From NCBI GenBank assembly GCA_017409205.1, contig JAFQTF010000005.1:51053-115052 (forward strand): 64,000 nucleotides of DNA, read 5' to 3'. Position numbers and translations under genes: made by a program. The DNA comes from Oscillospiraceae bacterium (GTDB lineage: Bacteria; Bacillota; Clostridia; Oscillospirales; Oscillospiraceae). Numbering within the stretch: position 1 is the first letter of the stretch; every line of letters starts with the position of its first letter. The notes beneath the pieces were generated by a model. That model was given only the letters and a program-made list of their open reading frames with translations, made no database searches and was not told where the DNA came from. Positions 1 through 59,622 of this stretch are shown here, in pieces.

Positions 1-304
1 TTTCCCGCATACCGTCATAGATCTCAAAGAAGTCCTTCCGCACCAGTGGTTCGCCTCCGGTAAGGAGGACGAAGACCATGCCCTTGTCTCTGGCAGCTTT
101 GGCGATATCCAGCCACTGCTTTGCCGTCAGCTCCTGCTTTCCGCAGGAACGAAGCTGTGCATCCGTCATGTGGACATAGCACATGGGGCAATTGAAGTTG
201 CACCGGGCAGTCAGTTCGAAATTTCCGGCGATGGGCAGGCCCAGCCGGCGGCCCTTGCTGTGAAGGTAGGTGGATACATAGGGCTCGGTACTGGTCTTTT
301 TCAC
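1..304 (-). CDS. Radical SAM enzyme, N-terminal part (cut by window edge)
   Basis: Partial gene; about 101 residues are visible. Reading from a GTG at 302-304, residues 34-43 are RCNFNCPMCY, giving the CxxxCxxC 4Fe-4S ligands (C35, C39, C42). TGGEPL at about 82-87 is the usual SAM-binding GGE segment. The family makes a 5'-deoxyadenosyl radical, and many members modify peptides or activate enzymes. The GTG start has GGAGGAGATCCT just upstream and overlaps the TGA of the kinase-like gene as GTGA, so the two are translationally coupled. Its place behind a small Cys-rich peptide gene suggests peptide maturation; that is inference. The C-terminal half, where a SPASM domain would lie, is outside the window. 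Confidence 0.9.
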   Translation of the reverse strand, partial: MKKTSTEPYVSTYLHSKGRRLGLPIAGNFELTARCNFNCPMCYVHMTDAQLRSCGKQELTAKQWLDIAKAARDKGMVFVLLTGGEPLVRKDFFEIYDGMRE

Positions 305-1158
305 AGGATCTCCTCCTTTTTCAGCATTTCCTCCAGGATACGGACGGCATCCGCATCCGGGGTGCAGGGCATGTAAAACACCGGGATCTCCGCCGCCGTT
401 TTCTGCACCAGGGCAGACACCAGTTCCATGTCCTGCCGGTCCCAGGTATTGACGCTGATGCCCTCCCAGATCTTGGAGAAGGCCTCATAGCCCCGGAGCT
501 TTCGGATGGTTGTTTTGGGTGCCTGGGCCAGATAGACGATGGCCGAGAGCGGCAGGCTCCGGTTTTTGCAATAGCTGGAACTGCCGCTGAAGGGGATGCC
601 CTCTGCCAGAAGGGTGCCCTCAGAAAGCCGGACCGCCGCCCGGTCGCCGTTGATGATCTCCGCGCCCCGGTACCGGCGCCAAAGCTCCGCCTGGGTGGAC
701 TTGCCCGTTTCTGACGGTGCTGTGAACAGAATGGCTTTCCCCCGGTATTCCACAAAGGCACAGTGGAAAACAAAGCCGTGATTCCGGGCTATGAGATGCT
801 CCACCCCCATGGATTCCAGAACGGTCTTCACGCCGATGGTTCCGGAGTAGGCATTTCGTCTGGCCAGAACAGAGTGTTCCCGTTCCTGGTGCTCCACCCG
901 AATATAAGGCAGACTTCCACCGATATCTCGGATCCGTTTGTCATCCGCGGCATAGATCCGGATGTTCGGGCCACCGCTGAGAAGCGTCCCCTGCGGTTCC
1001 GAAAACTCATCTGCAAAGCCAAAGCAAAACCGGTGGGGTGCAGATACAGCCTCCACCCGGAATTCTGACAGTCGCTGGTCATCGGTGTAGCATATCGCTT
1101 CCGGCATCTCCACTGAAAATTCCAGTCCGGCGAACCGGTAATACTTTCTCTGCATCAT
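301..1158 (-). CDS. HPr-kinase-like P-loop protein (peptide-kinase-like)
   Basis: 285 residues. The Walker A motif APSETGKST lies at about 147-155 and an NGDRAAVR segment (about 170-177) occupies the place of the HPr kinase catalytic Asp. There is no N-terminal HprK domain of the classic carbon-regulation enzyme. Stand-alone proteins of this type accompany RiPP operons; the kinase of the paeninodin lasso-peptide cluster phosphorylates its precursor. The start ATGATG overlaps the stop of the membrane-protein gene upstream, and its own stop overlaps the radical SAM start. A role in phosphorylating the 81-residue peptide encoded at 2012-2257, or another protein, is inference from context. Domain assignment is fairly sure, substrate unknown. 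Confidence 0.75.
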   Translation of the reverse strand: MMQRKYYRFAGLEFSVEMPEAICYTDDQRLSEFRVEAVSAPHRFCFGFADEFSEPQGTLLSGGPNIRIYAADDKRIRDIGGSLPYIRVEHQEREHSVLARRNAYSGTIGVKTVLESMGVEHLIARNHGFVFHCAFVEYRGKAILFTAPSETGKSTQAELWRRYRGAEIINGDRAAVRLSEGTLLAEGIPFSGSSSYCKNRSLPLSAIVYLAQAPKTTIRKLRGYEAFSKIWEGISVNTWDRQDMELVSALVQKTAAEIPVFYMPCTPDADAVRILEEMLKKEEIL

Positions 1159-1946
1159 TGGCTGATGGTGACGAACAGGATCCGGCTGCCTGTATCGGAT
1201 GCGTGGCGTGTCATGACCTGACGCAGCTCCCCGGCCTTCAGGCCTCCTTCGATGGTGACCTGATAGGTAATGCCGCCGTAGAGCAGATCCTCTGCCGCAT
1301 TCTTATAATACACCTTGATGGTGCCGGAAATATCCTCTTCCAAAAGATTGGTCACATTCAGGGCGCCATCGATGATCTGGATCTTCAGTTTATCCTCATG
1401 GAGGCTGACAGGCTCCTGGAAGTAAGCGACATTTTCCACCATGGGAAGAACGGCATCATAATCGGTTTCCCCGTTCCACTCCATCCGGTTCTGCTCCAGC
1501 AGGACCATGGTCTCCCCGGCAGGGAGGGTGGTGATCTGGAACCAGGCGGGGGTATCCCCCAGATCCAGGATGATCTTTGCATACTGGATATCCTGATCGC
1601 CGCTGTTTTTCACCACCAGCATCAGGATATTGGACAGGACTTCATCACTTCCGTCCTCCATATAAAGGCCGGTATAGGGGCCGATGTCTGTGACAAAGAG
1701 GCCATAGCCCAGATTGACGCTGCCCTCCGGCACATCCATGGTCTGCTGCACAGTCTCCAGGGCAGCCATCTGTGATGCATCAGGTGTTGTCTGCTTCGGA
1801 TCATTGTCTCCCCGTTTTGCACTGTAGAGCAGCAGAGCCATGCAGGCCGCCAGCAGCACCAGAATAACAGCGATCATGCCGCCCATGGGGCGTTTCCGGG
1901 GCTGGGCGGAAGCATATTTTCCGCCTTTGTTTTTACGTTTACTCAT
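1155..1946 (-). CDS. Membrane-anchored extracytoplasmic protein, unknown function
   Basis: 263 residues. A strongly basic N-terminus (about 1-20) is followed by one hydrophobic segment (about 22-42), consistent with a type II membrane protein exposing the rest outside. The outer part has a beta-rich look (runs such as VLSNILMLVVKNSG and GTIKVYYKN) and no cysteines or catalytic motif I can name. It lies 65 bases after the 81-residue peptide gene, across a hairpin, and its stop overlaps the kinase-like gene. It could help handle, anchor or export the peptide; this is inference only. Start chosen for GAGGT ahead of the ATG. Confidence 0.7.
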   Translation of the reverse strand: MSKRKNKGGKYASAQPRKRPMGGMIAVILVLLAACMALLLYSAKRGDNDPKQTTPDASQMAALETVQQTMDVPEGSVNLGYGLFVTDIGPYTGLYMEDGSDEVLSNILMLVVKNSGDQDIQYAKIILDLGDTPAWFQITTLPAGETMVLLEQNRMEWNGETDYDAVLPMVENVAYFQEPVSLHEDKLKIQIIDGALNVTNLLEEDISGTIKVYYKNAAEDLLYGGITYQVTIEGGLKAGELRQVMTRHASDTGSRILFVTISQ

Positions 1947-1968
1947 GGTAATTTACCTCAAATAGGAT

Positions 1969-1998
1969 GAAAGCCGCGCCACGAAGGGCGCGGCTTTC
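1969..1998 (-). terminator. Intra-operon hairpin after the peptide gene
   Basis: A 12-bp perfect GC-rich stem, GAAAGCCGCGCC paired with GGCGCGGCTTTC, with a 6-base loop. It lies 13 bases after the stop of the 81-residue peptide gene and before the membrane-protein gene. No real T-run follows on the minus strand, so it is more likely a partial attenuator or an mRNA-stabilising 3' hairpin than a full terminator. This layout is often used to make more precursor than modifying enzyme. Confidence 0.7.
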
Positions 1999-2011
1999 TT
2001 GGGGTTTGTGG

Positions 2012-2257
2012 TTAGGAGTTGAAGAGATCGCTTGTATCCACAGGAACATGGTAGCAGACGCCATTGGCACCATCCTCATTTTTTGTCGTACAGGCGCCAA
2101 TATCTGTGGTAAATACATTTTTGTTCTCTCGCTCATCATAAAAAGCGCAGACATACTTTACACTGTTATTAATAATGAAAAAGCAGTTGCCTGCAATATT
2201 TGTACTCAGCGCAAAGCTTTCATAGGCAATCTCGGGCTTGGAATAGGATTTTTTCAT
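2012..2257 (-). CDS. 81-residue Cys-containing peptide, candidate RiPP precursor
   Basis: 81 residues, with strong ribosome site AAAGGAGG before the ATG. The N-terminus MKKSYSKPEI contains Y5-x-x-P8-x-I10, the YxxP motif that RiPP recognition elements bind in Firmicute lasso-peptide leaders. STNIAG (18-23) resembles the AG-ending leader of paeninodin-type precursors. The remainder holds four cysteines at 25, 37, 56 and 68, spaced 12, 19 and 12. It has no signal peptide or membrane segment. The gene starts 14 bases after the giant secreted-protein gene and precedes membrane, kinase-like and radical SAM genes. A precursor peptide is the best reading. A small non-RiPP exported protein is the alternative, since no RRE, B2 protease or cyclase is visible nearby. 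Confidence 0.65.
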   Translation of the reverse strand: MKKSYSKPEIAYESFALSTNIAGNCFFIINNSVKYVCAFYDERENKNVFTTDIGACTTKNEDGANGVCYHVPVDTSDLFNS

Positions 2258-2271: not shown

Positions 2272-5200
2272 TTAGCGGAACCAGCCGCCGAAGATGTTTT
2301 CCAGAACATGCTTGACTACCTTGGTCACCGTCTTCACAACGGTCTGGACGATGGTGCCGATGGGGTTGTTGCCGGTTCCGGGTTTGGTTTCTTCGGGGAC
2401 AGTTTCCTCGGGTTCGGTGGTTTCGGGAACCGTAGGTTCAGGCTCGGTGGTTTCGGGCACTGTTACTTCGGGTTCGGTGGCATCGGGCTCTTCCTCACCA
2501 CCCTGAGTGGGGGCATTCAGAGAACGCAGGGTCAGGGTCGCTGCGGCAGGAGTCATGTACAGATAGGTCTCGTTGGCAGGGATCACGCCCTCGTCACCAA
2601 GTTCACTTGCAGGAGCAATACCGTTCTCGGTATTCTCCTCTCCGGTGGTCACAGCGCCATTGGGGTTGGAGGTATAGGTGGACTTGATGTTGGTCAGGGA
2701 GATAATGCCGCTGCTGCCAGAGTTTTTGATCACAATGATATTGTTTCTCCAGCCGGTGATATCGTAGTACATATCCGTGGTGGTATTGACAGAGCCTTCC
2801 TTCTCATTGAATACGGTACCCTTGCTGACAGTACCCTGATCGCTGACAATATCGCTCTTGGCAATATTGCTGATCTTGTAGGTCACAGCTTCACCATTGG
2901 CACTCTTGATACCAAGGTGTACCCTGGCAATATTCTCAGGAGTCTCCAGCAGGAAGGCCACGCTCTGACCTGCATCCAGGTAGACCTCATTATTGGGACC
3001 GTAGCTGATGTAATCCCGAATCTGGGCATCGCCGATCTCGTCATCGCCATCGATAAAGACGAGGCCTTCAATTTTCGTCTCTGTACTTTCATTACCCAGT
3101 GTATTCGCAGTAATGATCTTATCGCGCAGCTCGATGTAGCTGGGCCAGCCTTCGCTGTCAGCCACATAGGCATCCTGGATCACCTGGTTGCCTGCTCCGT
3201 CGTTGGCGGGGTCATAGATCCGGATGGCATCCAGATAGAAGTCGTAGTCTGTACTGCCTTCCACATTGTCGTATCTGGTGTTATAACTTGCTGTAATAAC
3301 AGCCTTGTACTTACCATAGGTCAGATCATTCACCTGCATAACAGGGATCTGATACAGGCTGTTATCTGCATTGGGATCAACAACCCACACATACTCAATG
3401 CCAGGAACTTCTGTGCCGACCTCAGGATTTTCAGGCTTCTCGGCCTTGGATTCTGCGGTTCCCCCAGCGGCTTTTTCGCCTAGGTACCGAAGCCACTGAT
3501 TCTCATACACAGGCTCATCCACTGTGCCAACATTGACGGTTTCATACTTATACGTTACATTGTAAAGCCCCTTGGTATAACCGTAGTAGGTATCAACCAG
3601 ACGGCTCACAAGCAATTCATCACTTTCGTTATACACATCCACATAAATGGAACCGGTAGCATTGCTGGTCAGTGCAATAACATCAAAGCCGGTGCCCTTG
3701 AATTCGAATGTAGCCGTACCCTTGTTGTCGTAGTCCACATTGGCCTTCATGGCGGAGCCCAGGGAGTAGGTAGACATGGGTATATTTACGGAATCAAATC
3801 CGTAGATATTGTTGGCATCCGTCAGGGCGTACTGACCGGGACGGTCTTCAGCCTGAACGCCATCCATCGTTTCGCCTGCTATATTCCACACCCATTTTTC
3901 ATTGCTCTTGTCAACCTCCTGCCAGCCACCATTCCAGGTATAACTCTTCAGATTCACAAAGCTATCCTCATAATAGATGGTGGTAGCGGGGATGACAGTA
4001 ACGGTATCGTAGTAGTAGCCGGCGTTCTCGTTGCCAGTGTACTGGGCGGCGTAGGCGAACTTCTCGTAGGTCTCCATCTGCATACCGTTGGCAGTATTCA
4101 GGGTATAACGAACCTTGCCGGTTTCGGTATTGATCTCAGCGGTACCATAGGTGCCAGTGTGGTTATTGCTGAAGCCGGATGCCAGTGCAGCGGTATAGCC
4201 GGTCAGATCCGCACTGGTGGCTGCCTGAGCAGCTTCCACAGTGCCAACACCTGCCAGTCTGCCGTTCTCGCCGAACATATCATTGGTCAGAACGGAGATG
4301 TCAACGGGCAAACCGTAGTCGATGACTACCGTATCAGGCAGGGCCTGAATCTTCCACACGACTGCGAACCAGACGACGGTGTGGGTATAGTCATAGCCAA
4401 CCTCATTTACACTCATGTCCTTGGAGTAAGCAGATGCGTCCTCAGGATCATAGTGCACAACATACGTGGTTGCTGTATCCTTCAGAGAAGTAATCGTCCA
4501 GCCGCCAGTGGTGTTGGAGTTGACTGTAACCGTGTAGGTTGCGCCGTCGGTAATCTTGCCGTCCTCACCATAAGTAGCATCGAACAGTGTATAACCGTCA
4601 GGCAGAACCTTTGCAGCCTCAACCGCATCAATTTCCTCATTGGTATTCAGCAGAACAGTATCGTACACAACGGGGTTGGTCACAGCAATTTTATTTGCAA
4701 AGGCGCCAGTCTGACCGGTAGTCTGGTTGTTGATGATGTTGCCGTTTTCGTCAACGAGGTAGAAAGCGTAGGAAACGTTTGCTTCCTTCCAGGGCATAAC
4801 AGGAGAAACGGTATCCTTGTAGCAGGGGTTATGCAGATAGTTGTCGTAGTACAGGGTAGCATACTCGTTGGTGGGGTAGGAGCCTGCCTCACGGGTGCCT
4901 TCCATGGAACCATCCAGGTAGACATAATACCGCATAGCCAGCTCGGAAGTCTGGACAGTACCCATCTTCCAGTAGAAGGTCTCGGAGGGCAATACATTGG
5001 TGGATCCGGTAGTTGTTCCGTCCGCCTTGGTACCGGTGGGGATGGACACACCCTCAACGGCAACTGCGGTAGCATTGGTATTGTACCAGAAGGACTGGGC
5101 GCAGATAACACCATCGATCAAAATGTTGCCGCTCTTTTTGTCGGAGTAAGCCACGGTGCCGTCAGTATTGAAGGTAACGGTTTCCAGAACCGTATAAGTT

Positions 5201-8200
5201 CCCTTACGGTCGCCGATCTTGTCTTCGGTGATCACACCATCCAGATAGTCCTGGCGGGTGTAGATATCATAGGACAGGATTTCGATCTTGGGGGTAATAG
5301 ACTTGCTGGTGGTACTGGTACCATCAACGACAGAGTAATTGCTGACAGCCATCTGCAGGTTGTAGTCATCGCCCATCTGATCAACATAGCGGGCGTTGTA
5401 GGCTGCGTAGGCGATCTCGGAGCCGATGGCATCGAATGCATTGGCCAGTTCATCAGCCGTGGTAACCTTGTAGTAGTACTGGGTAGTACCGGTCTGCTCG
5501 GATGCCAGGGATGCAATGGACTTGTCCATGCTTACCTCTGTGACGTTGGTATCCGCCTGTGCGTCGAAGGAGATGGAGAACATCTTTGCGCCCAGACCGG
5601 AAACCATGTACATATTGTCTTCATTGGTTTCAGCTGCCCAGTAGGCATCCTGCTTGCGGATAACCTCATAGGTTTCACTGGGATCACCCTTGATGGCGTT
5701 GGCCATTCGGTGCTCGTTGCGCATGCCGTCACCGTTGTGGTCAACTTCATCGTAATAGTAGGCGTGGGTCGTACAATTCAGGTTGGTGGTAGTCAGCTGG
5801 TTTGCGGTCCATGCACCGGTGATCCAGTTATTCCACAGAGAAGATGCACCCTGAGAATGGTAGTAGTTCCACTGCATGGCTGCGCCGTCGGACATGAAGA
5901 TGACATACAGGTCACGCTCTTCGCTGCCGTTTGCCTGCTTGATGGCATAGCCAAGCTGATAGATGGCATCCATGGCATAGTCATAGTTGGTACCGGAGGC
6001 GTAATTCAGGGTGTAGCTGTTTGCCAGATCTGCGGCATCGATAAATGCACCTGCACCGAGGGTACCGTCACCGGTATAGACCTTTGCTTCACTGTCTGCA
6101 GCATAGGAAATATCGTCAGACATGGTATCGGCGCCATCCCGGGCATAGGCACCGGAGGAGAAGAAACCATTGAAGTCGGCAATGGCAACACGCAGGTCCA
6201 TCAATGCGCCGTCATCACCGGGGGTCTTGAACTGCTTGATCATTTCCACCAAAGACTCTTCCAGAACCTTAGCACGGGTCTTGGAGGAGCCGGTGACGGT
6301 GTGGCTGGTCATGGAGGAGGAAGTATCCAACATAACGATGACGTCGGCGCCCTTCTTGATGGGCACGCCGGAGGCGGAGACTTCCACCTGTGCGATACCG
6401 GAGGACTGGAAATCGATGCCGGTACCGGTCTTGTTGACCTTGATAGAGCCTTCGTTGGGATACTCGGGATAGTTATTGACTGCACCGGGTTCCTTGGCAT
6501 TGACTACCACTTCCACAGTGCCCAGAACCTCGCCGTTGTAGCTGATCTGAACCCAGTAGGAACCGGGAACGTTGCCGTTGAACTTGTTCAGCCAGGTCCA
6601 GGTCAGAGCGCTGTCCTCCAGTTCTGTGGGGTTGGATCCATCAGCACTGCTGGAGAGATAGCCGGTAATGCCCGCCTTGACCGTATTCATGGCTGTGGTG
6701 GCAGACTTGCCGTTGGGCAGGGTATAGACCGTGTTGCCCTCAAGATGGGCATAGATGGAGCCGCCGGGAGTACCGCCGGTGGTACCGGTGTACTTGTAAA
6801 GACGGACGCTAACAGCTGTATAGTTGCTCTCCTCGCTGACGGTGAATCTGCTGCCGTTATAATACAAGGTACGCTTAGTGCCTTCATTATCATACAAGCA
6901 ATAGGTACCATCACCATTGTTAATTACACCGTCCATATAGGAAGCAGACTTCTCGCCAAGATAGATGTAATAGCCAGACTGATGCAGACCATAGCTGCCT
7001 CTGGTAAAACCATAGGTGCTGTTCCAATAATACTCGTAATCACGGGTCGTGGTGGTCACAGTTTTACCATCAGAGGAAATATTGACGGATTCAGCCGTAG
7101 AAGCCGAAGTGCCACTGGTGTGCAGAGCAAGCGCCTGGGTCTCTGCCACAATGATGTATTTATTACTGGAGCCAGCATCAATGCCGTCGGTATCCAGGGT
7201 ATAGGTATAGCTGCCACCGGTGGCTTCGGTTTCACCGACGTAAGTCCAGCCATCCTTAATGCCGGTTTCATATTCGACGTTGACTCTCACTTCGACATCC
7301 GCCAGCTTGATGCCGTCCTTGCTGATGCGCAGGGTGTAGGGGCCAATGTTCTTGCCATCGTAGGTATCGACCCAGGTCCAGGACACATCATCATCGCTGA
7401 TTGCGGTCTTGTCAGTGCCTTCGGCATTGGAGGCAGTGTAAACGGTAACCTTTTCCTTCACTGCTGCCACAGCATCCTCAGCAGAGGTGTTCATTGCCAC
7501 TTCGTACTCAGGTTCGCTTTCAACAATGTAGTAGGTGGTGGTCGCAGGAACGATGACCTCGGCGGTGCCCAGAACGGTGCCATTGTAGGAAATGGTCACA
7601 GCATAGTCACCGGGAGTATTGGAATTATAGTTGGGATCCAGAGTCCAGGTCACAACACCGTCATCAGCAGTCTGTTCGTCGCTGTAGTCCGCAGCGGTGG
7701 CATACTTGATGGTGATACCATTCTTGACAGCAGCCAACGCATCAGCAGCAGAGGTGCCGGGAGTGACAGTATAGCTCAGGTCGCCTTCCAGCTTGCCGTA
7801 GAGGCCGCCATCACCCGGGATGGTGCTGTCATAGGCAAACAGGTAGACAGAATATGTTGTACTGGAGTAACTATTTACCCGGGTACCTGTCCAGCCATTA
7901 TTATACCTTACAAAATACTTTCTTCTATTATTGTCTGTTCTATAAATCTGATATTCGCCATTACCCTCATTCCCAATGGTCATATTAGAACTACTGGTAT
8001 TCAGAGACAGCCTGCCATCGTTGGGGTATACATAGCGACCCTGGTTCGCAAATGCGCTGCTGCTGGTTCCATTGGAAGCCCAGCTGATAGCAGTGTCATC
8101 AGCAACGGTAATCGTTCCGTTGCTGATGGTCACCTGTGTGCGGCCAACCGAACCATTGTTGTTGGTCAAAACATAGGCGATACCATTGCTACTGGTATTG

Positions 8201-10149
8201 ACAATCAGGTACTTGGTATTCGCATTGACGCCATCGGTATCCAGAACAAATTTGATGCCGCCGGACTCAGGTTCAGTGATGGTGGTCCAGCCATCACCGC
8301 TTGTTTCAACGTCATCCTCAACATCGGGAGTCACGCCGACAGAGCCGCCGGTGGTGCCGCCCTCGGTATCCCCGCTGTCTTCACCGGAATCGGAATTCAG
8401 CAGAGAGATGGTCTGGGGAGAGGCATACTCCTTGGTGTTATAGGCCAGGCCCAGAGAGCTTGCGGTGATAGAAGTATTGTTGTAATAGCCGTCACGGCCT
8501 TTGGAACTCAGGTTATACACGCTGTCGGCGCTGTAGCGCTCCACCTTGACTTCGGTGCCGGTGATGGCAAAGACAGTCATGGTCAGCTTGCTGTCATCGC
8601 GCTCATTGATGTTATAGCCGGTTTCGTTGTAGTAACCGGTATAGCCGGCATTCATGTAGGTGAAGTTCAGAGTCTCGGTGGTATACTTGGTATTGTCAGC
8701 GGGGTCCGCAATATACAGGGTATCACCCTCTGCGCGGTAGATGGCTTCACCGCCCAGATAGTTGTCACAGCCGTAAGCATGGTCGTGGCCGTGCAGGAAG
8801 ATGATGTTCAGACCGTCTTCGCCGGCGGCATTCAGAACATCAAACAGGTACTTGGCATACTTGCCGTCGCCCTGAACCTGGGTACGGGGGCTGTAGTGCA
8901 GGGGCAGGTGGGAGACCACAAAAATGGGGGCAGTGTAGTCTTCCGCAATCTTGGCATCCAGCCATGTCTTCATAGTGTTTGCCAGGCCCTGAATACCGGT
9001 AGCGGAGCCGCCGCCGTTGGGATAGTCATCCTCGTTCAGCACATAGGCAGCGTAATTGCCAAAGTCATGGCCTCCGGTTTTATCGATACGGGAATCCATG
9101 TTGTCATGGTTGCCCTGCACCAGGATGGTATTGTCATTGTTGACATCGGAATACACTGCCTGAACAGTTTCCATCAGGGAGGTGATGCCGTTGCCAACCT
9201 TGGTGGCATTGTTATGGTCGGTGCCGTCGTAGTCACCCACAAACAGCATGCCGTCCATTCTGGCGTACTCCTGGCTGATCTGGGCCAGAATGTTGGTGAC
9301 ATTTTCCGCACTGTTCACGTGCAAGTCAGAGCCGTCGTTGTTGCCCTCCTGATAGTCGCCGCCAGCCAGGACATAGGTGGTGTTTTCATCGGCATAGCCG
9401 GTGATCTCATCCTCATCCAGGAACACGGTGACATGGCAGGTGTCGCTGAATTCACCGGCGGTTGCGGTAATGTCAGCTTCGCCGATCATGCCAAAATTCA
9501 GCAGACCGTCTTCATCGAAGAAGGCCACGTCTTCATTGGAGGAAGTCCAGGTGACAGTCTTGTCGGTGGCATCCTCGGGGGTGACAGTGGCAGTCAGGGT
9601 GACAGGCAGAGTACCCACCGGCACTTCCAGCTCATGCACATCCAGAGTGATGCCGGTGACGGCCACAGCTGCATCCTCTTCCTCGGAATCCTCAACATCC
9701 TCGGAAGGATCCGTTGCATCCTCATCCTCGGAAGGGTCAGTTGCGTCCTCGCCCTCGGATGGGTCAGTTGCGTCCTCGCCCTCGGATGGGTCAGTTGCAT
9801 CCTCACCCTCGGAAGGGTCAGTTGCGTCCTCGCCCTCGGAAGGGTCGGTTGCATCCTCGCCCTCAGAAGGGTCGGTTGCATCCTCATCCTCGGAAGGATC
9901 GGTTGCATCCTCATCCTCGGAAGGATCGGTTGCATCCTCATCCTCGGAAGGAACATTCTCATTACCCTCAGCAGGATCGTCATCCTCAGAGAGTGCATTG
10001 CCGGAAATCCCGTCGGACACGCCGATTTCTGCGGTCTCGGAGATCTCACTGATGATGGCTTCTTCATTTGCAAGTGCGTTTACGGGCATGACGCCGACCA
10101 GCATCACAACGCACAGAAGCATAGCAAGCCATCTTCTCATTTCCTTCAT
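2272..10149 (-). CDS. Giant secreted metallophosphatase/VWA protein
   Basis: 2625 residues. Signal peptide about 1-28; acidic nine-residue repeats 73-153; bacterial Ig-like (Big_2) domain about 161-242; calcineurin-like metallophosphatase about 255-560, with GGDYQEG, GDYDGTDH, GNHDN (346-350), SHLPLHY and GHDHAYG. Ig-like repeats of about 90 residues lie near 780, 875 and 1130, each holding a T/K-S-A-x-x-A-x-x-x-V-K segment. A VWA domain starts near 1265 with the MIDAS DTSSSMT. The C-terminus is P/E/T-rich and ends in a 29-residue amphipathic tail with no LPxTG. The role is probably cell-surface adhesion or nucleotide/phosphoester hydrolysis; the substrate is unknown. AGGAGGTATAAGA precedes the ATG. 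Confidence 0.85.
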   Translation of the reverse strand: MKEMRRWLAMLLCVVMLVGVMPVNALANEEAIISEISETAEIGVSDGISGNALSEDDDPAEGNENVPSEDEDATDPSEDEDATDPSEDEDATDPSEGEDATDPSEGEDATDPSEGEDATDPSEGEDATDPSEGEDATDPSEDEDATDPSEDVEDSEEEDAAVAVTGITLDVHELEVPVGTLPVTLTATVTPEDATDKTVTWTSSNEDVAFFDEDGLLNFGMIGEADITATAGEFSDTCHVTVFLDEDEITGYADENTTYVLAGGDYQEGNNDGSDLHVNSAENVTNILAQISQEYARMDGMLFVGDYDGTDHNNATKVGNGITSLMETVQAVYSDVNNDNTILVQGNHDNMDSRIDKTGGHDFGNYAAYVLNEDDYPNGGGSATGIQGLANTMKTWLDAKIAEDYTAPIFVVSHLPLHYSPRTQVQGDGKYAKYLFDVLNAAGEDGLNIIFLHGHDHAYGCDNYLGGEAIYRAEGDTLYIADPADNTKYTTETLNFTYMNAGYTGYYNETGYNINERDDSKLTMTVFAITGTEVKVERYSADSVYNLSSKGRDGYYNNTSITASSLGLAYNTKEYASPQTISLLNSDSGEDSGDTEGGTTGGSVGVTPDVEDDVETSGDGWTTITEPESGGIKFVLDTDGVNANTKYLIVNTSSNGIAYVLTNNNGSVGRTQVTISNGTITVADDTAISWASNGTSSSAFANQGRYVYPNDGRLSLNTSSSNMTIGNEGNGEYQIYRTDNNRRKYFVRYNNGWTGTRVNSYSSTTYSVYLFAYDSTIPGDGGLYGKLEGDLSYTVTPGTSAADALAAVKNGITIKYATAADYSDEQTADDGVVTWTLDPNYNSNTPGDYAVTISYNGTVLGTAEVIVPATTTYYIVESEPEYEVAMNTSAEDAVAAVKEKVTVYTASNAEGTDKTAISDDDVSWTWVDTYDGKNIGPYTLRISKDGIKLADVEVRVNVEYETGIKDGWTYVGETEATGGSYTYTLDTDGIDAGSSNKYIIVAETQALALHTSGTSASTAESVNISSDGKTVTTTTRDYEYYWNSTYGFTRGSYGLHQSGYYIYLGEKSASYMDGVINNGDGTYCLYDNEGTKRTLYYNGSRFTVSEESNYTAVSVRLYKYTGTTGGTPGGSIYAHLEGNTVYTLPNGKSATTAMNTVKAGITGYLSSSADGSNPTELEDSALTWTWLNKFNGNVPGSYWVQISYNGEVLGTVEVVVNAKEPGAVNNYPEYPNEGSIKVNKTGTGIDFQSSGIAQVEVSASGVPIKKGADVIVMLDTSSSMTSHTVTGSSKTRAKVLEESLVEMIKQFKTPGDDGALMDLRVAIADFNGFFSSGAYARDGADTMSDDISYAADSEAKVYTGDGTLGAGAFIDAADLANSYTLNYASGTNYDYAMDAIYQLGYAIKQANGSEERDLYVIFMSDGAAMQWNYYHSQGASSLWNNWITGAWTANQLTTTNLNCTTHAYYYDEVDHNGDGMRNEHRMANAIKGDPSETYEVIRKQDAYWAAETNEDNMYMVSGLGAKMFSISFDAQADTNVTEVSMDKSIASLASEQTGTTQYYYKVTTADELANAFDAIGSEIAYAAYNARYVDQMGDDYNLQMAVSNYSVVDGTSTTSKSITPKIEILSYDIYTRQDYLDGVITEDKIGDRKGTYTVLETVTFNTDGTVAYSDKKSGNILIDGVICAQSFWYNTNATAVAVEGVSIPTGTKADGTTTGSTNVLPSETFYWKMGTVQTSELAMRYYVYLDGSMEGTREAGSYPTNEYATLYYDNYLHNPCYKDTVSPVMPWKEANVSYAFYLVDENGNIINNQTTGQTGAFANKIAVTNPVVYDTVLLNTNEEIDAVEAAKVLPDGYTLFDATYGEDGKITDGATYTVTVNSNTTGGWTITSLKDTATTYVVHYDPEDASAYSKDMSVNEVGYDYTHTVVWFAVVWKIQALPDTVVIDYGLPVDISVLTNDMFGENGRLAGVGTVEAAQAATSADLTGYTAALASGFSNNHTGTYGTAEINTETGKVRYTLNTANGMQMETYEKFAYAAQYTGNENAGYYYDTVTVIPATTIYYEDSFVNLKSYTWNGGWQEVDKSNEKWVWNIAGETMDGVQAEDRPGQYALTDANNIYGFDSVNIPMSTYSLGSAMKANVDYDNKGTATFEFKGTGFDVIALTSNATGSIYVDVYNESDELLVSRLVDTYYGYTKGLYNVTYKYETVNVGTVDEPVYENQWLRYLGEKAAGGTAESKAEKPENPEVGTEVPGIEYVWVVDPNADNSLYQIPVMQVNDLTYGKYKAVITASYNTRYDNVEGSTDYDFYLDAIRIYDPANDGAGNQVIQDAYVADSEGWPSYIELRDKIITANTLGNESTETKIEGLVFIDGDDEIGDAQIRDYISYGPNNEVYLDAGQSVAFLLETPENIARVHLGIKSANGEAVTYKISNIAKSDIVSDQGTVSKGTVFNEKEGSVNTTTDMYYDITGWRNNIIVIKNSGSSGIISLTNIKSTYTSNPNGAVTTGEENTENGIAPASELGDEGVIPANETYLYMTPAAATLTLRSLNAPTQGGEEEPDATEPEVTVPETTEPEPTVPETTEPEETVPEETKPGTGNNPIGTIVQTVVKTVTKVVKHVLENIFGGWFR
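9691..9933 (-). repeat. 27-bp in-frame tandem repeat, nine copies
   Basis: Nine tandem 27-bp units inside the giant secreted-protein gene encode ATDPSEGED or ATDPSEDED (residues 73-153; the last unit ends DVE). Middle copies carry Gly and outer copies Asp at position 7. The result is a very acidic stalk between signal peptide and first Ig-like domain. Nearly identical units make the copy number prone to slippage. Confidence 0.9.
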
Positions 10150-11798: not shown

Positions 11799-13247
11799 TT
11801 ATTTTGGGGTTTTGCCGTAGCCGTACTTATCGTAGGAGCCATACTTCCGGTAGCCGCCGTAGCGGTAATCGTAGCCATAGCCCCCGGTGGATGTAAACCG
11901 GCTGGAATAGACATTGTTCAGCACGCAGCCCAGCAGCTTTGCCCGCTGGCCTTCCAGGGCGCCGATAGCCTTGTTCAGGGCAGGCGTCACCGCCGCATTC
12001 TGACGGACCACCAGCAGGCAGGCATCTGCCAGACCGGTCATACCCTCAGCATCAGAGGCAGCTGTCATGGGAGGCAGATCCAGAATGACGAAATCGTAAT
12101 TCTCTCTTGCCCAGTCCAGCAGACGGTTCATCCGCTGGGAGGTGATCAGTTCACTGGTTTTCCGGTCTCCCCGCCGGGCAAGCAGCAGATCCAGATTGGT
12201 GTCCCCATATTTCAGGATGGCTTCCGATGTGTTTGCCTCACCCGTAAGGACTTCCCGGATGCCTGCGCCGAACTTCTTCTGCTCCAGCACCAGATGGCAG
12301 GCAGGCTTGCGCAGGTCACAGTCGATCAGCAGCACCCGAGGGTACTTCTGCGCCATGGCCAGAGCCATATTCACGGCGATGGTGGACTTGCCTTCGTTTT
12401 CCAGAAGGCTGGTAACCATCAGCACTTTTCTGCCGCCCATGTGCTGCTCCACCCGGCGGCGGAGTTTCCGGAAGGTCTCCACAAACCGGAAACCAACAAC
12501 GGGATTGTCGATCAGCAGGCTGCTCTTCTTTCGCCGGATGCGGGATACCAGGGTTTTATATTTGTTTTCGTGGGGGATCTCTCCCAGATAGCTGCAGTCC
12601 AGTTTTTCCCTGGCCTCGTAGCTGCTGCGCACCGCATTGCGCCGCAGAGACAAAAAGGCCAGTCCGGCTGCGGTCAGCAGTGCTGCGATCACGGCCATTT
12701 TTTTCATCTGACCCACCGGATTCACGGAATTGGACGGGCCGGAAGGAACGGCAGGATACTGCAGCACTTCGATGACGATGCCGTCGATAAAGGAATAGGT
12801 CAGTTCCTCGTGCCTGTCAATGATGGTCTGGGCCGTCAGGAAGGCTGTCCGGGGATCGGGAGAAGTCACGGTCATGGTGATCAGATTGGTATTGGGGATC
12901 ACCGCCGTGGAAACAGAGGCATCCAGCCAGGTCACGCCCATAGTCTCCATGATGCTCTTTCTCATAATGGAGCTGTTCAGCAGTTCCGTGAACAAGCTTG
13001 CCACACTGCTGGTAGATGACAGATTGGAATAAACCGTGGTGGAGCTGCCCTGTGTCGTAACCACAAAGGTCGTATTGGTTTTGTAGACCGGTTTATAGGA
13101 CAGGTCTGTGGAAATATATGCGCCCACGCCCACTGCCACAACTGCCAGCACGATGACCAGCCACCGTTTCAGCACATCCTGCAGAAGGACAATGGGGTCA
13201 AAGGGCAGAAGGCCGCCCGCTGTGTGCATTTCTTTCGTATTATCCAT
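11799..13247 (-). CDS. Fused Wzz/BY-type tyrosine kinase with Tyr tail (copy 1)
   Basis: 482 residues. Membrane segments lie at about 29-45 and 183-200, with a Wzz-like extracellular loop between. The kinase part has Walker A ENEGKST (283-289), Walker A' LLIDCDLRKP (Asp 309 and 311) and Walker B FVILDLPP (D390). The C-terminus (457-477) carries nine tyrosines with Gly, Arg and Lys between them, a more varied tail than that of the neighbouring kinase. Expected role: polymerise and export control of exopolysaccharide through cycles of tyrosine phosphorylation. Sequence differs clearly from the second copy, so this is an old duplication or two functional partners. The start overlaps the end of the upstream gene by 8 bases. 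Confidence 0.9.
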   Translation of the reverse strand: MDNTKEMHTAGGLLPFDPIVLLQDVLKRWLVIVLAVVAVGVGAYISTDLSYKPVYKTNTTFVVTTQGSSTTVYSNLSSTSSVASLFTELLNSSIMRKSIMETMGVTWLDASVSTAVIPNTNLITMTVTSPDPRTAFLTAQTIIDRHEELTYSFIDGIVIEVLQYPAVPSGPSNSVNPVGQMKKMAVIAALLTAAGLAFLSLRRNAVRSSYEAREKLDCSYLGEIPHENKYKTLVSRIRRKKSSLLIDNPVVGFRFVETFRKLRRRVEQHMGGRKVLMVTSLLENEGKSTIAVNMALAMAQKYPRVLLIDCDLRKPACHLVLEQKKFGAGIREVLTGEANTSEAILKYGDTNLDLLLARRGDRKTSELITSQRMNRLLDWARENYDFVILDLPPMTAASDAEGMTGLADACLLVVRQNAAVTPALNKAIGALEGQRAKLLGCVLNNVYSSRFTSTGGYGYDYRYGGYRKYGSYDKYGYGKTPK

Positions 13248-14124
13248 TGAGTTTTCCTTCCACTACAACAATCAGTTTGGAATAGCCGACATATTTCCAG
13301 GTCCGCTCCGGATCCCGCTCATCGTACTCCGTATAGGTCACCCGGTATTTTACCGAATAGACACCTGGGATCCGGGTATGGACGTTTCCGGTGATCTTGA
13401 CGCTGTAATCCTCCGGCAAACCATATTTCAGATTCACCTCGTCTCCCATCAGATGGAAGGTGTCCAGATATGCCTCCGGTTCAAACTCCGCACCCTTTTC
13501 CAGATACACCAGATACTCTGACAGTGTCAGCTCCGCCTCGTACATGCCGGCGTTGTAAACCTCCACCGGGAAGGTCTGGCTGATAGTCTCGCCCAGGGAA
13601 TTGGTCACCTGGAATTTTACATTGTGTGTACCGGTCCCGGCAATGGAATCCTCGTCCAGAGAAGCTGCCCGAACCCGGTGCTGGATATCACCGTCGATCA
13701 GATCTGTGGCTCCCACATTGCCCAGCACATCAAAGCTGGAGCCTGCGGGATACAGCAGCGGCCCGGACAGGGTAAACCGGGGACTTTCATAGTCCGTGTA
13801 CTTCGCTTCCCGCTGGGCACGGACCACATTGCCCGCGCTGTCAAAAGCTGCATATTTCACCAGCAGATGGCCTTCGCTGTCCTGAAGGCTTACATTTTCC
13901 ACCACCAGGGAGCCGGTAACATCACCATCCCGATCATCTGCAGCCGTAACGCCCTGCAGCAGCATATCTCTGGAATCAAAAACAGAGAGCTCCGGGATCT
14001 GCTCTTCCAGATGGATCTCCGGCGGAACGTTGTCTGCCCGGTAGTGCGCAAGGACCTCATATCCGCAGAACACTGCAGCGCATACCAGGATCAGCAGTAC
14101 AATGAGCCAGTTTTGTCTTTTCAT
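13240..14124 (-). CDS. Membrane-anchored Ig-like (DUF5011-type) protein
   Basis: 294 residues. An N-terminal hydrophobic anchor (about 7-25) is followed by two DUF5011-like Ig modules: VPPEIHLEE then DDRDGDVTG (about 63-71), and SPRFTLSG then DLIDGDIQ. The DxxDGDxT pattern is typical of this extracellular fold. A last beta-rich module (about 190-285) precedes the end. In gut Firmicutes such proteins occur in exopolysaccharide export loci, and its place between the PHP phosphatase and the BY-kinases fits that; the molecular role is unknown. It may interact with the Wzz loops or the polymer outside the membrane. Confidence 0.7.
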   Translation of the reverse strand: MKRQNWLIVLLILVCAAVFCGYEVLAHYRADNVPPEIHLEEQIPELSVFDSRDMLLQGVTAADDRDGDVTGSLVVENVSLQDSEGHLLVKYAAFDSAGNVVRAQREAKYTDYESPRFTLSGPLLYPAGSSFDVLGNVGATDLIDGDIQHRVRAASLDEDSIAGTGTHNVKFQVTNSLGETISQTFPVEVYNAGMYEAELTLSEYLVYLEKGAEFEPEAYLDTFHLMGDEVNLKYGLPEDYSVKITGNVHTRIPGVYSVKYRVTYTEYDERDPERTWKYVGYSKLIVVVEGKLNG

Positions 14125-14884: not shown

Positions 14885-15346
14885 TTACTTTATCAGTCGC
14901 TTCAGGCAGGCATAGCCTTTCCTGACCGCCGGGCGCACAGGCACCATGCGGATCCAGATTTTCTCAAAAAACTCCCACCAGAAGCTTCCCTTCTGCAGCC
15001 GCCTTCCCTTTCGGTACACGGCTGTGACGACTGCCTTCACCTGATCCCGGCGGATGCCGGATTCCAGCAGGGTTTGATTGTCTCCCACCATTGTGAAGGT
15101 ATCCCCCTCTGTCCGGAAGATCCGATGGAGGATATAGGCACCGCTGTCCCGGCGGTACAGCACCATGTCTCCCCGCTTCAGAGGGCGGCAAACTTTGGAC
15201 AGGTATACCGTATCCCGCCTGTGCACCAGAAAGGGTGTCATGCTGCTGCCGCTAACCACCAGCGGAACAGCATCCGTTTCCTCCAGCAGCGCCAGCAGCG
15301 GCTCCATCAGCTGCTCCGGTTCCAGAACTTTAACCTTATACCCCAT
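14885..15346 (-). CDS. S24/S26-like peptidase without membrane anchor
   Basis: 153 residues. VVSGSSMTPFL (about 34-44) carries the catalytic Ser of signal-peptidase-like S26 enzymes. LKRGDMVLY and YILHRI match the SipW/ER-type pattern in which a His stands in for the Lys. MVGDN follows. Unlike real signal peptidases it has no N-terminal membrane helix. Small stand-alone S26-like proteins of this kind turn up in RiPP and lasso-like clusters together with ABC exporters, and this one overlaps the ABC exporter gene by 11 bases. It might process an exported peptide such as the 81-residue product of 2012-2257; that is inference. Confidence 0.75.
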   Translation of the reverse strand: MGYKVKVLEPEQLMEPLLALLEETDAVPLVVSGSSMTPFLVHRRDTVYLSKVCRPLKRGDMVLYRRDSGAYILHRIFRTEGDTFTMVGDNQTLLESGIRRDQVKAVVTAVYRKGRRLQKGSFWWEFFEKIWIRMVPVRPAVRKGYACLKRLIK

Positions 15347-17054
15347 CCGTTACCTCCGTTACCCGGCGACGGTGGATCTCATAGGTACGGCTGCAGAACC
15401 GGGCGCTTTCGGGCCGGTGGGTCACCAGAATACAGGTATGCAGCAGACCGCTCTGCCGCAGATTATTCAGAAGCTGCCGTTCTGTATTGATATCCAGACC
15501 GGAGGTGGCTTCATCCAGCAGCAGAACCGGCGCTTTTCTCAGCAGCGCCCGGGCAATGGCCAGACGCTGGGCCTGACCCTCGGAAATACCCCGGCCGCCG
15601 GCTCCCAATCTGTGTTCCAGTCCCTCCGGGAACCGGCTGACGAAGTCCCAGGCACAGGCGATCTTCAGCACTTCCTCCAGTTCTTCGTCATCAGCTTCCG
15701 GACGGACAAGCCGCAGATTCTCGGCAATGGTGCCGGAAAACACGCTGTTGCCCTGAGGCACATAGGCAAATACGCTGCGAGTGCCTGCGGTTATGAAATA
15801 GTTGGTTCCGGAGCCGCCGGTAAGGGCAACCTTTCCGGAATTTGGCTCCACCAGTCCCAGCAACAGCCGCAGCAGGGTGGTCTTTCCTTCACCGGAAGGA
15901 CCGATGATGGCGATCAGGTCGCCATGGCGGGCAGTAAAGTCAAACGGTTCCAGAACCGTGTCCCCATCCCGGTAACGGAAGGAGACCCGCTCCATGACGA
16001 TATCCAGAGTCTGCTCCCGCTCCAGTCCCGAAGGCGTCACCATTGCTTCCTCAGGAAGCTCCTCCACCGCCAGAATCCGTCCGGCGGAGGTGGTCATGGA
16101 GATCAGCTGCTGCGCCAGGGACACCAGTGCAGAAAAAGACCCCCGCAGTGTGGAGGCCAGCTGAAGAAACAGTGTCAGGGAGCCATAGGTAATACTGCCG
16201 TTCCAGAGCTGGTACACGCCCCAGGCAAAGCAGGAAGCCGTCACCAGCATCCCCACCAGAGACAAAAAGGAGGACATGCTGATCTGGAATGCGTTGTAGG
16301 AAAGATACGCATTAATGTAGGTGCTCTGAAGCTGCTTCATCTCTGACTCAAACCGGTCAGCCAGAGAGAAGGCCTTGATACTGGTGAGATTCCGGAAGGA
16401 ATCCTCCTGAAAGGACATGACCTCACCCGTCAGTTCCTTCATTTCCAGATTATGACTGCGCAGTCTGTGCATCAGCAGCCGGGACAGCACCAGCATCACC
16501 GGCACGCCCATCAGAGCGATCACCGCCATCACAGGATCATAATACAGAATGATACAGAAGGCGCCCAGGAACTTGGCAACAGAGGTCAGCAGTGCAGGAA
16601 GAAAATTGATGACACCGTCAGAAACCGTATTCACATCAGCGTTCAGCCGGTTCAGCAGATCGCCGCTGCGGTAAGGTTCCAGTGCCTCCCATCCGGCCCG
16701 GAGGATCCGGGTATAGGTTTTATGCTGCATCTCATTGCGGACCCGGACATGGACCTGAGCCCCGATCCGGGAAGATATGCCCTGAAACAGGAGACTTCCC
16801 AGCATCATCAGCGCCATAAGCACCGCAGACCGGGCCAGCAGTCCGGAACCGAATCCGGTGACTGCATCGATCAGGTACTTGGAGGCCACACTGGACACCA
16901 GCCCCATTGCAGTGCCGGTCAGGCCCAGAAGCACTATGACCAGGATCTTTCCGCGGTACTGCATCATCCGCTGCAGCAGCCAGAGAACTTCCCGCTTCAG
17001 CTGTTGGGGATCCTCTTTATGGAGTTGTTTTTTCAGTTTCTGAAAAACGCCCAT
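15336..17054 (-). CDS. ABC exporter, fused membrane and ATPase domains
   Basis: 572 residues. A six-helix type I exporter domain spans about 35-320. The nucleotide-binding domain follows: Walker A GPSGEGKTT near 383, signature ISEGQ (not the usual LSGGQ), Walker B VLLLDEATSGLD and switch His in VTHRP. There is no N-terminal C39 peptidase domain. The family exports peptides, lipids or lipid-linked glycans. As the first gene of an operon with an S26-like peptidase, it could export a leader-cleaved peptide; as the only flippase-like protein in a locus lacking Wzx, it could also move a lipid-linked sugar. The sequence does not decide between them. Confidence 0.88.
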   Translation of the reverse strand: MGVFQKLKKQLHKEDPQQLKREVLWLLQRMMQYRGKILVIVLLGLTGTAMGLVSSVASKYLIDAVTGFGSGLLARSAVLMALMMLGSLLFQGISSRIGAQVHVRVRNEMQHKTYTRILRAGWEALEPYRSGDLLNRLNADVNTVSDGVINFLPALLTSVAKFLGAFCIILYYDPVMAVIALMGVPVMLVLSRLLMHRLRSHNLEMKELTGEVMSFQEDSFRNLTSIKAFSLADRFESEMKQLQSTYINAYLSYNAFQISMSSFLSLVGMLVTASCFAWGVYQLWNGSITYGSLTLFLQLASTLRGSFSALVSLAQQLISMTTSAGRILAVEELPEEAMVTPSGLEREQTLDIVMERVSFRYRDGDTVLEPFDFTARHGDLIAIIGPSGEGKTTLLRLLLGLVEPNSGKVALTGGSGTNYFITAGTRSVFAYVPQGNSVFSGTIAENLRLVRPEADDEELEEVLKIACAWDFVSRFPEGLEHRLGAGGRGISEGQAQRLAIARALLRKAPVLLLDEATSGLDINTERQLLNNLRQSGLLHTCILVTHRPESARFCSRTYEIHRRRVTEVTDGV

Positions 17055-21039: not shown

Positions 21040-22221
21040 TTACAGCCCAATATCCCCCATCAGCTTCCGCAGTTCCCAAACCTCTGTCTCGTCTGCGCTG
21101 ATGATGTTCTTCATTTTCCGGGTTCTTAGTCCCAGCTTGTCTCTGTTTTTCACCAAACGGTGCACCCAGGCCGCAGGCAGCAGCCAGGGCTTGTCCTGCA
21201 GATAGGTATAGCGGCTTTCAATGGTCTGCGCTTTCGGGAAGGTCTCCCGCAGCAGATGGTGCAGTCTGGAGACCGGCTCCGCCTGCCCCCCATGCTTCAG
21301 CGCCGTCAGGGCTTCATCCCGGTTGTGATGACCGAAGGTTCCCGCTTCCATTGTGAACGCAAGAAATTGCTCCATCACTTCCTGGTCGGGCGTCCCGTGC
21401 TCCATGGGACAGGAAACACCGAACCAGCTTTCCGCCGCTGTCAGCACCGTTCCGGCAAAGGCTTCCAGCTTCAGCAGCCGCAGCTGTTCCCGAATCCAGG
21501 TCCAGTCAAGGCGCTTTCCATAGTGCTGCACAAATACCGCTACATCCATATACATCCGGATGCCAGCGCCGGAACCATGAACATGCTTGGCAATGTGGGT
21601 CAGCAGATACAGGAAGTGAAACTCCGGCGTGAAGCGGAAGCTGTGGGGGCTGACAGGTTCGGCATGCTCCCACATATTCCGAAAATAACCCTTATAATCC
21701 GCCCGGTCGGAGACATCGACCTCCATGATCTCCGTATGGATCTCGTAGAGTTCATTGCCCCGGAAATAGCTGTACACCGGCTCCCAGTCGGTGTGCCGCT
21801 GAAAGCCCATGGACACCATAAGTTCATCGCTGCGCTGCCGGTCGGCGGGCCGGATGACGATGTCAATGTCATTGAAGGTGCGAAGCTCCGGCACCGGATA
21901 CAGTTCCCGCAGCACATAGCCCTTCATTAATATATGGTCGATTCCTGCCTGTTCCAGCGTCTTCGAAAGGGCTTCCGCCTGAATACTGCGCTGGGCAAAC
22001 CGGGCCACCGTATTCCGGCAGCCGCTTCGCAGGAATGCCGCGGCCTGAGCATCCGGGCAGATGGGATGCTTCATGGTCATATAGCCCAGAATTCCGGTAA
22101 CGCTGTGAATCTGGGCCAGTTGAATCAGCTTCTGCCAGTCCGCATCAGCGGAAATCTCCGGTGTTTCCTTTCGGATATAGGCTCCCAGCAGATGGAGAAG
22201 ATATCGGCATTCTGTTTCCAT
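21040..22221 (-). CDS. Nucleotidyltransferase-fold protein (NTP_transf_5 type)
   Basis: 393 residues. ILMKGYVLRELYPVPELR followed by FNDIDIVI carries the nucleotidyltransferase-like Asp-x-Asp of the NTP_transf_5 family. The rest is helical. Members occur both in capsule loci and in RiPP clusters (including lasso-peptide clusters with HPr-kinase-like proteins), where their reaction is still poorly known. Here it sits between a metallophosphoesterase and a GT2 gene. It could attach a nucleotide to a sugar, a lipid intermediate or a peptide. AGGAGG precedes the ATG. Confidence 0.78.
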   Translation of the reverse strand: METECRYLLHLLGAYIRKETPEISADADWQKLIQLAQIHSVTGILGYMTMKHPICPDAQAAAFLRSGCRNTVARFAQRSIQAEALSKTLEQAGIDHILMKGYVLRELYPVPELRTFNDIDIVIRPADRQRSDELMVSMGFQRHTDWEPVYSYFRGNELYEIHTEIMEVDVSDRADYKGYFRNMWEHAEPVSPHSFRFTPEFHFLYLLTHIAKHVHGSGAGIRMYMDVAVFVQHYGKRLDWTWIREQLRLLKLEAFAGTVLTAAESWFGVSCPMEHGTPDQEVMEQFLAFTMEAGTFGHHNRDEALTALKHGGQAEPVSRLHHLLRETFPKAQTIESRYTYLQDKPWLLPAAWVHRLVKNRDKLGLRTRKMKNIISADETEVWELRKLMGDIGL

Positions 22222-45914: not shown

Positions 45915-47219
45915 TTACACGCTGAACACGGTCTGTTCCTGGACATCAGTAGCAATGGCCTGGATGGCGACCTTGGTTCTGTGATAACGCAGCTTCCACT
46001 GGTCTTCCTTCGGCGTGGAGGGATCGCCCAGAGGATAAGGGATGGAAATGGTGGGAACCATTCGGTTTGCACCAACCGTCTTGGAAACGGGGATCAGATT
46101 GCACATATGGACCACGGGGATGCCGGTACGCTCAATCTCTTTGACCATCGTTGCACCGCAACGCGTACAGGTACCTCATGTCGACACCATGATGACGGCG
46201 TCCACGCAGTCCTCCTTCAGATAGGGTACGATCTCTCTGGCCATTCTGGCGGCCTCAGATTCGGTGGTGCCGGTACCCACTGTGGTGTAGAACCAGTTGT
46301 GGAGCGCGCCGTAGAAGCCTTCCTTTTCCAGAGCCCGCAGGGCATCAATGGGGGTAATGACATCGGGATCGGCGTCAGCCGCAGCCGGGTCGAAGCCTGC
46401 GTGGACAGTTTTGAATACGCCGCCTTCCAGGCCATCGGCACCTTCAATGCTGTAGCGGCCCCAGCGGGTGGCAGAGGCAGACTGGATCCGGTCAGGGTTG
46501 TCCACGGGGACGATGCCGCCGGTATTCAGCAGGGCGATCTTCGCCTTCTTCAGATCCTTGATCGCAGGAGCGATGGGCACCCGGTCGATCTTGGGGATGG
46601 GCATTTCGGTGACAAAGGGCAGTCCATTGACCTTCTTCAGCAGCATGTCGATCATACGCTCGGAGGCGGGCTTGCCGTCCTTGCGCCATACCTGATGCCG
46701 GATGCCCCGGGGGAAGCAGCCTTCCTCCTCGGCAGGACCGATCGCAACGCCGTCCAGCAGCTTGTTGGCAAGTGTTACCATATTGGAAAGATCCTTGCGC
46801 ATCTTTGCGGCAGAATTGGCGCCCTTCAGAATGTACATATCCTTGCGGAACATATTGACGCCAGGGGTTTCCACATTCATGGAAGTCACCACAGGAACGC
46901 CGAACTTTTCTTTCACAGCCTTGCAGATCAGACCGCAGGCAACGGTGTAACGGCCGGCCTGGAAAGCAGGGCCTGCCAGGAAAATATCAAACTCCAGACC
47001 ATCCAGCATGGCCAGGATCTTTGCGCAGGTCTCCTCAGGGTTGGAGCCCATGCAGTTGTCACCGCAGATGATGGTGTGGGTCACCTCTGCGTGGAGGGTC
47101 TTGGCCATCTGCATGGCAGGGCCCACCTGGCCTTCCCGGATCTCCGGTTCAAATCCGGCCTTTTCCTCGCCGCCGATCTGGCCGAAGAACTGGTTCAAAT
47201 AAACGATCGCTTTTTTCAT
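45915..47219 (-). CDS. grdH: Betaine reductase component B selenoprotein (GrdB/GrdF/GrdH family)
   Basis: 434 residues if the in-frame TGA at 46176-46178 is read as selenocysteine (residue 348): VST-Sec-GTCTRCGATMVKEIERTG is the Sec site of the substrate-binding B subunit of glycine, sarcosine and betaine reductases. Stopping at TGA would lose the conserved end (PVVHMCNLIPVSKTVGANRMV). A SECIS-like hairpin follows the TGA. The enzyme binds the amine, cleaves the C-N bond and passes a carboxymethyl group to selenoprotein A. A BCCT transporter and a proprotein partner encoded alongside point to betaine, so grdH rather than grdB or grdF. grdA, grdC and grdD are not in the window. Confidence 0.92.
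46142..46178 (-). promoter_or_regulatory. Selenocysteine UGA and bacterial SECIS-like hairpin
   Basis: Starting 12 bases after the UGA, CGTTGC-GGT-GCAACG forms a 6-bp stem with a GGU loop. In bacteria the SelB-binding SECIS lies right after the UGA inside the coding region and often has a G-G-U apical loop. It is followed by the sequence encoding the rest of the protein in the same frame. Confidence 0.85.
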
Positions 47220-59543: not shown

Positions 59544-59559
59544 TGTCAAACTCCTTTCC

Positions 59560-59622
59560 ATGGTGGAGAGGCCTGAATTTGACAAACACATTTTATCACA
59601 TCCAGGCCTCAAATTCCACCAT
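59560..59622 (-). promoter_or_regulatory. Long inverted repeat in the integrase leader
   Basis: Two nested matches: ATGGTGGA (59560-59567) with TCCACCAT (59615-59622), and GAGGCCTG (59568-59575) with CAGGCCTC (59603-59610). Together they fold into a 16-bp interrupted stem ahead of the integrase ribosome site. It could act as an attenuator or protein-binding site. Confidence 0.6.

Follow-up and report, generated by a model that had tools for sequence, protein, structure and literature searches.

We describe a peptide-modification gene cluster at the left end of a 64,000-nucleotide stretch of an Oscillospiraceae genome, hereafter the window (G000:C38:51053-115052), with the contig to its left read as well. 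Conserved neighbourhoods and a clear precursor family strongly support a system of the type that makes ribosomally synthesized and post-translationally modified peptides (RiPPs), in which a kinase and a radical S-adenosylmethionine (SAM) enzyme would both modify the precursor. It is probably a radical-SAM variant of the peptide pathways that combine a kinase with a RiPP recognition element (RRE). The gene set and the cysteines of the precursor recur across many loci, which confirms that this RiPP cluster is not a chance arrangement. Crosslinking by a radical SAM enzyme and tagging by a kinase would thereby meet on one well-defined precursor family in many gut Clostridia.

Operon organization and recurrence of the gene set

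The operon lies on the minus strand and is headed by the precursor gene (2012..2257), followed by the genes of a 263-residue protein (1155..1946), a 285-residue kinase of the HprK/PEPCK fold (301..1158) and a radical SAM/SPASM enzyme (1..304, continuing to about -820; L002:17133-18257), of which the 101 N-terminal residues of 374 fall in the window. The 81-residue precursor frame is a real gene, as indicated by the ribosome site AAAGGAGG located 8 nt 5' of its ATG, its position 14 nt past the stop of a 2625-residue protein, and its relatives in other genomes. Overlaps of 4 nt join the 263-residue protein gene to the kinase gene, the kinase gene to the radical SAM gene, and the latter to a directly following gene for a PqqD-type RRE of 86 residues (about -1077 to -817, minus strand; L002:16876-17136; PF05402, 3.8e-17). 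The first-pass annotation of the window had reported no RRE, a claim refuted by this match; the gene was missed because it lies left of the window edge. It is the sole PqqD-family match in its own genome (76.6% complete). The same annotation described the genes downstream of the precursor as tightly coupled, which holds for the gene order and the overlaps among the 263-residue protein, kinase and radical SAM genes; the joint to the precursor is looser, because 65 nt with a strong hairpin lie between. This hairpin (1947..2011, minus strand; minimum free energy of -26.9 kcal/mol across the gap) is a likely attenuator. The 263-residue protein, a recurring cassette member, has one N-terminal hydrophobic segment and is predicted to be membrane-anchored, and its outer part gave no clear Pfam match.

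The peptide, the radical SAM enzyme and the kinase were used as queries against 200 genomes of the family. The peptide search returned 14 places in 12 genomes, 12 of them real-looking; the matches at G001:C37, with two stops, and G154:C3, within a 353-residue frame, were set aside as chance. At ten of the 12 real places the fetched locus includes a kinase match, the other two being cut by contig ends, and nine of the ten also carry the radical SAM gene. With the radical SAM query (E<=1e-40), 23 places were found in 16 of the 200 genomes, and a kinase match lies less than 3 kb away at 18 of them (compared by eye). A kinase is present in all 16 radical-SAM genomes vs 23 of the 184 others (Fisher 2e-13, the p value being rough owing to kinship).

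A wider set, the named loci, comprises the best 80 of 505 confirmed radical SAM loci from an alignment scan of the genome collection, with a few loci sharing a genome. Counted with profiles from the family loci (E<=1e-4, match anywhere in the locus), the kinase is present in 77 of the 80, the RRE in 72 and the membrane protein in 60. Homologues of the precursor stand beside kinase and radical SAM genes, in line with the RiPP-type system first proposed. Judged by record titles, the named loci come from Clostridia, including Oscillospiraceae and Lachnospiraceae, and herbivore guts are a frequent source; Pseudoflavonifractor sp. An44, Lachnoclostridium sp. An76 and Anaeromassilibacillus senegalensis An867 are among them. 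A single strand of the An44 locus (L126) encodes, in succession, the surface protein, the membrane protein, the RRE, the precursor, the kinase, the radical SAM enzyme, the exporter, the S26 peptidase, the immunoglobulin (Ig)-like protein and two Wzz-type proteins.

The precursor family and its predicted modifying enzymes

As first described, the 81-residue frame carries a YxxPxI motif and cysteines 25, 37, 56 and 68, now placed on the minus strand. Its leader, extending to about residue 24, contains Y5-x-x-P8-x-I10, and the core bears the four cysteines and ends in Phe-Asn-Ser. The precursor gave no Pfam or NCBIfam match. A profile built on alignment columns 1-26, which cover the leader including Cys25, found one precursor per locus in 58 of the 80 named loci; three further precursors were seen by eye, all ending in Ser, and a 40-residue leader match in L165 was left out of the counts. 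The 58 profile-found precursors plus 19 family sequences, recognized by the YxxP pattern and position, form an alignment of 77 rows, 75 of them different. Tyr5, Pro8 and Cys25 occur in 77 of 77, in columns favoured by the finding profile. Outside the profile, Cys56 is found in 77 of 77, Cys37 in 69 of 71, Cys68 in 70 of 77, Tyr69 in 67 of 71 and Phe49 in 63 of 76. The leader consensus reads Y-x-K-P-x-x-x-[FY]-E-x-F-x-L-S-x-x-I-A. Removal of near-copies (>=60% identity) left 64 non-redundant precursors, 45 of which have exactly four cysteines. A terminal Ser is present in 61, the remaining three having Ser next to last, compared to 46 of 800 other non-overlapping open reading frames of at least 150 residues in the named loci, a control that may include spurious frames. 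In addition, a hairpin 3' of the precursor stop (z < -3) was found in 30 of 58 named loci.

The whole radical SAM protein matches PF04055 (9.7e-28), and its CxxxCxxC motif and SPASM cysteines are invariant (18 of 18). Among solved structures, the sactisynthase SkfB ranks as its best relative (2.5e-29), with an anaerobic sulfatase-maturating enzyme at 4.8e-14 in the same list. The SPASM cysteines and the rank of SkfB led us to reject an ordinary anaerobic activase, the identity that would have undermined the first proposal. At L111:8874-11134, a tandem pair of radical SAM genes lies within one cassette.

The kinase has a P-loop (GKST), and its residues His132, Lys153 and Asp172 are invariant in all 32 aligned members. 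Structure comparison fits the PEPCK type of fold, and the first sequence match is HprK, a weak one (E 0.048). All 50 rows of a structure re-ranking are PEPCK; HprK is not among them, an absence that proves nothing. In the kinase tree, the radical-SAM-linked kinases fall into a 40-row fork with moderate support (87/77). A single origin of these kinases is not firm, as the fork also holds two unlinked rows and the ambiguous L050 and L052, where a Cys-rich precursor and a kinase occur in a locus free of radical SAM genes, with the radical SAM gene elsewhere in their genomes. A second kinase of the same kind is encoded in the genome of the window itself (G000:C19; L076:2726-3466), in an 11-kb locus where neither an RRE nor a radical SAM or S26 match was found.

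The S26-like peptidase, ATP-binding cassette (ABC) exporter and NTP_transf_5 protein noted earlier in the window are all present, on the minus strand. The S24/S26-like peptidase (14885..15346; PF00717, 1.2e-6), a candidate leader peptidase, scores 3.3e-7 and 8.2e-6 against signal peptidase I models, both below cut-off, and its Ser35 and His74 are invariant in all 15 aligned sequences. The adjacent MsbA-like ABC protein (15336..17054) is a candidate exporter, with MsbA as top NCBIfam match (1.4e-74, below cut-off). The NTP_transf_5 protein (21040..22221; PF14907, 4.6e-45) is a candidate transferase acting on phosphate. These three genes probably belong to the system, because an S26 match is found in 14 of the 16 radical-SAM genomes vs 18 of the 184 others (Fisher 4e-11, again rough owing to kinship).

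We propose that the YxxP leader is bound by the RRE, which would present the precursor to the enzymes. The radical SAM enzyme would link the core cysteines to other residues, most likely as thioethers, and the kinase would place a phosphate onto the terminal Ser in the manner of PadeK and ThcoK. This phosphate may in turn receive a sugar or nucleotide from the NTP_transf_5 protein. The S26 peptidase is predicted to cut near Ala22-Gly23, ahead of Cys25, and the MsbA-like ABC protein to export the product. With a hairpin behind the precursor gene, more precursor than enzyme would be made.

Comparison with known peptide pathways

The nearest counterparts among described pathways are the linear polyphosphorylated peptides (LPP; Popov et al. 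2026, PMC13381572), together with lasso peptides of the paeninodin type. In the parts of that paper drawn on here, the LPP pathway comprises an HprK-like kinase (here assigned by fold and a weak sequence match), a discrete RRE, a SipW-like peptidase, an NTP transferase, an MsbA-like exporter, a YxxP leader and a capsule locus. We found the discrete RRE, and also the peptidase, exporter and NTP transferase on the same strand, with the MsbA and signal peptidase models below cut-off. By contrast, the radical SAM/SPASM enzyme, the membrane protein, the four conserved cysteines and the terminal Ser are features of the present system only. The LPP leader consensus given there is YxxPxVLxHQxIxFETxxS, with which the leaders here agree in YxxP alone. 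Because this defining consensus is absent, we do not file the system as an LPP; it looks like an LPP pathway with a radical SAM step added. The terms "radical SAM" and "Clostridia" occur 0 times in the text of the LPP paper, the consulted portion of which maps Bacilli genomes. A true LPP cluster with the radical SAM gene as a chance neighbour would account for the RRE, the S26-type peptidase, the MsbA-like exporter, the NTP transferase and the kinase fold. Nevertheless, we consider it highly unlikely, given a leader that differs beyond YxxP, the conserved core cysteines, the joint travel of the radical SAM and kinase genes and the grouping, with moderate support, of the radical-SAM-linked kinases on the tree. 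Separate LPP-like clusters do occur in these Clostridia: L070, L072, L073 and L083 have a kinase, an S26 match and two of RRE, exporter and NTP_transf_5, without a radical SAM gene.

Lasso peptides of the paeninodin/pseudomycoidin type share the kinase, RRE, NTP transferase and conserved C-terminal Ser (PMC9266682, in part), the last of these found here in the proportion given above. An HPr kinase passage in PMC4289311 likewise concerns lasso clusters. Their cyclase and B2 protease were already reported as lacking, and this was upheld: no Asn_synthase match of the lasso cyclase type lies in the cluster, the single one in its own genome being on another contig, and the B2 protease family PF13471 has 0 matches in that genome (76.6% complete). 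We therefore rejected a lasso peptide system.

The SynChlorMet cassette (NCBIfam models ScmC, ScmD, ScmE, ScmF) also combines kinase-like, PqqD-like and radical SAM/SPASM proteins, and weak matches to all four were obtained (32.9/125, 25/100, 77.9/400 and 61/400 bits, respectively), each below the cut-off for membership. That cassette has two radical SAM genes and, to our knowledge, no known precursor. Among the matches listed in the open PMC literature, we found no description of a peptide system combining a kinase with a radical SAM enzyme. The full novelty first proposed for the cluster is not supported for the kinase, RRE, peptidase, exporter and NTP-transferase part, which matches the LPP pathway as outlined in the portion of PMC13381572 used here.

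Several observations weigh against our proposal. The chemistry and the role of the product are inferred from sequence. Five of the 23 radical SAM places have no kinase within 3 kb. Seen from the kinase side, the radical SAM gene is present in only 17 of 36 fetched loci outside the window; most of the other 19 hold kinases that are less closely related, and several have an RRE, S26 and exporter. In 22 of the 80 named loci, no precursor was picked up by the leader model. Moreover, the kinase has NGD at the DD position of HprK, differing at the first Asp, and the weak Pfam matches of its family are to AAA_33 in 10 of 32 members vs Hpr_kinase_C in 3 of 32. The S26, exporter and NTP_transf_5 genes lie 13-19 kb upstream of the precursor, with capsule genes between, and occur in only 10, 14 and 16 of the 80 named loci, respectively (15 of 80 for a 294-residue Ig-like protein), many of these loci being truncated by a contig end or by the limit of the 10-kb flank. 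The phosphorylation site is also at issue. The Ser phosphorylated by LppK is internal according to a passage of PMC13381572, and four peptides picked by eye near kinases without a radical SAM gene (L069, L070, L081, L084) have neither Cys nor terminal Ser, so that this residue may be there for the radical SAM enzyme or the exporter, not the kinase. The terminal Ser is still the better guess, though not certain, because it is the residue targeted by PadeK, ThcoK and SyanK, and because hexose addition to the terminal phospho-Ser requires PsmN, which carries a nucleotidyltransferase annotation (PMC9266682, in part).

Some of these points would suit a sactipeptide- or ranthipeptide-like cluster (as of SkfB or PapB), in which the kinase-like protein is an accessory for folding or recognition and the S26, exporter and NTP_transf_5 genes belong to the capsule locus only. 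A SPASM enzyme and a Cys-rich core, both shared with that class, would be enough for it, and the departure from HprK at the first Asp and the 13 kb separating S26 and exporter from the cluster in the window are consistent with it. Compared to that class, the present system has a separate RRE, a kinase and an NTP transferase, and the NCBIfam PapB model reaches 49 of 340 bits on the radical SAM enzyme, far below cut-off. Against this alternative, the kinase is present in 77 of the 80 named loci and has three invariant residues, S26 is tied to the radical-SAM genomes, and compact clusters exist at L057 and L136 (single strand, no precursor being found in L136) and L049 (both strands), a 200-nt stretch of L057 being identical to one in An44. 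We thus regard this alternative as unlikely and favour modification by both kinase and radical SAM enzyme.

The giant surface protein and neighbouring genes

The 2625-residue protein encoded upstream of the precursor (2272..10149, minus strand) is a predicted secreted surface protein with Big_2 and metallophosphoesterase matches. A readable gene precedes the precursor in 54 of 58 named loci, encoding a same-strand protein of at least 800 residues in 31, a cassette protein in 16, and another or cut gene in 7. In the 31 loci, the gap to the precursor is 13-20 nt in 20 and 22-191 nt in 8, with a 4-nt overlap in 3. The C-terminal 600 residues of the surface protein recur in 39 of 103 loci, its VWA part in 12 and its metallophosphoesterase part in 7. 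On this last count, in a set where many surface genes are cut, a dedicated phosphopeptide phosphatase was dropped.

Because a giant surface protein is so often encoded alongside, it gives a concrete starting point for the role of the peptide, the roles of LPP and paeninodin being called unknown in the LPP paper (PMC13381572, in part). The product probably acts at the cell surface, in concert with this co-encoded protein and the capsule locus, which is the weakest step of our proposal. The peptide might even be a cross-linked, phospho-tagged partner attached to or displayed with the surface protein, not a free secreted product. The large same-strand upstream genes, mostly at 13-20 nt, and the recurring C-terminal 600 residues favour such a partner, and the kinase/NTP_transf_5 pair could form a phosphodiester-type link; the loci where a cassette gene or another or cut gene takes the upstream place argue against it, and we hold it to be quite unlikely. 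It is likewise improbable that gut Clostridia have here a RiPP class of its own, with radical-SAM thioether rings and a terminal-Ser (poly)phosphate or phospho-sugar on the same peptide, where the phosphate would fix the peptide to the giant surface protein or capsule.

Elsewhere in the window, the 294-residue Ig-like surface protein (13240..14124, minus strand) recurs near these cassettes. A betaine reductase selenoprotein B gene (45915-47219, minus strand; NF040795, 8e-181 for the part before the stop) contains one in-frame TGA (VST*GTCTRCGA) after which the frame continues, likely a selenocysteine codon, and is adjoined by genes for a GrdG-like subunit and a betaine transporter. At the right window end (58353-62836, minus strand), a tyrosine recombinase, a MobV relaxase and a P4-type primase mark a mobilisable element.
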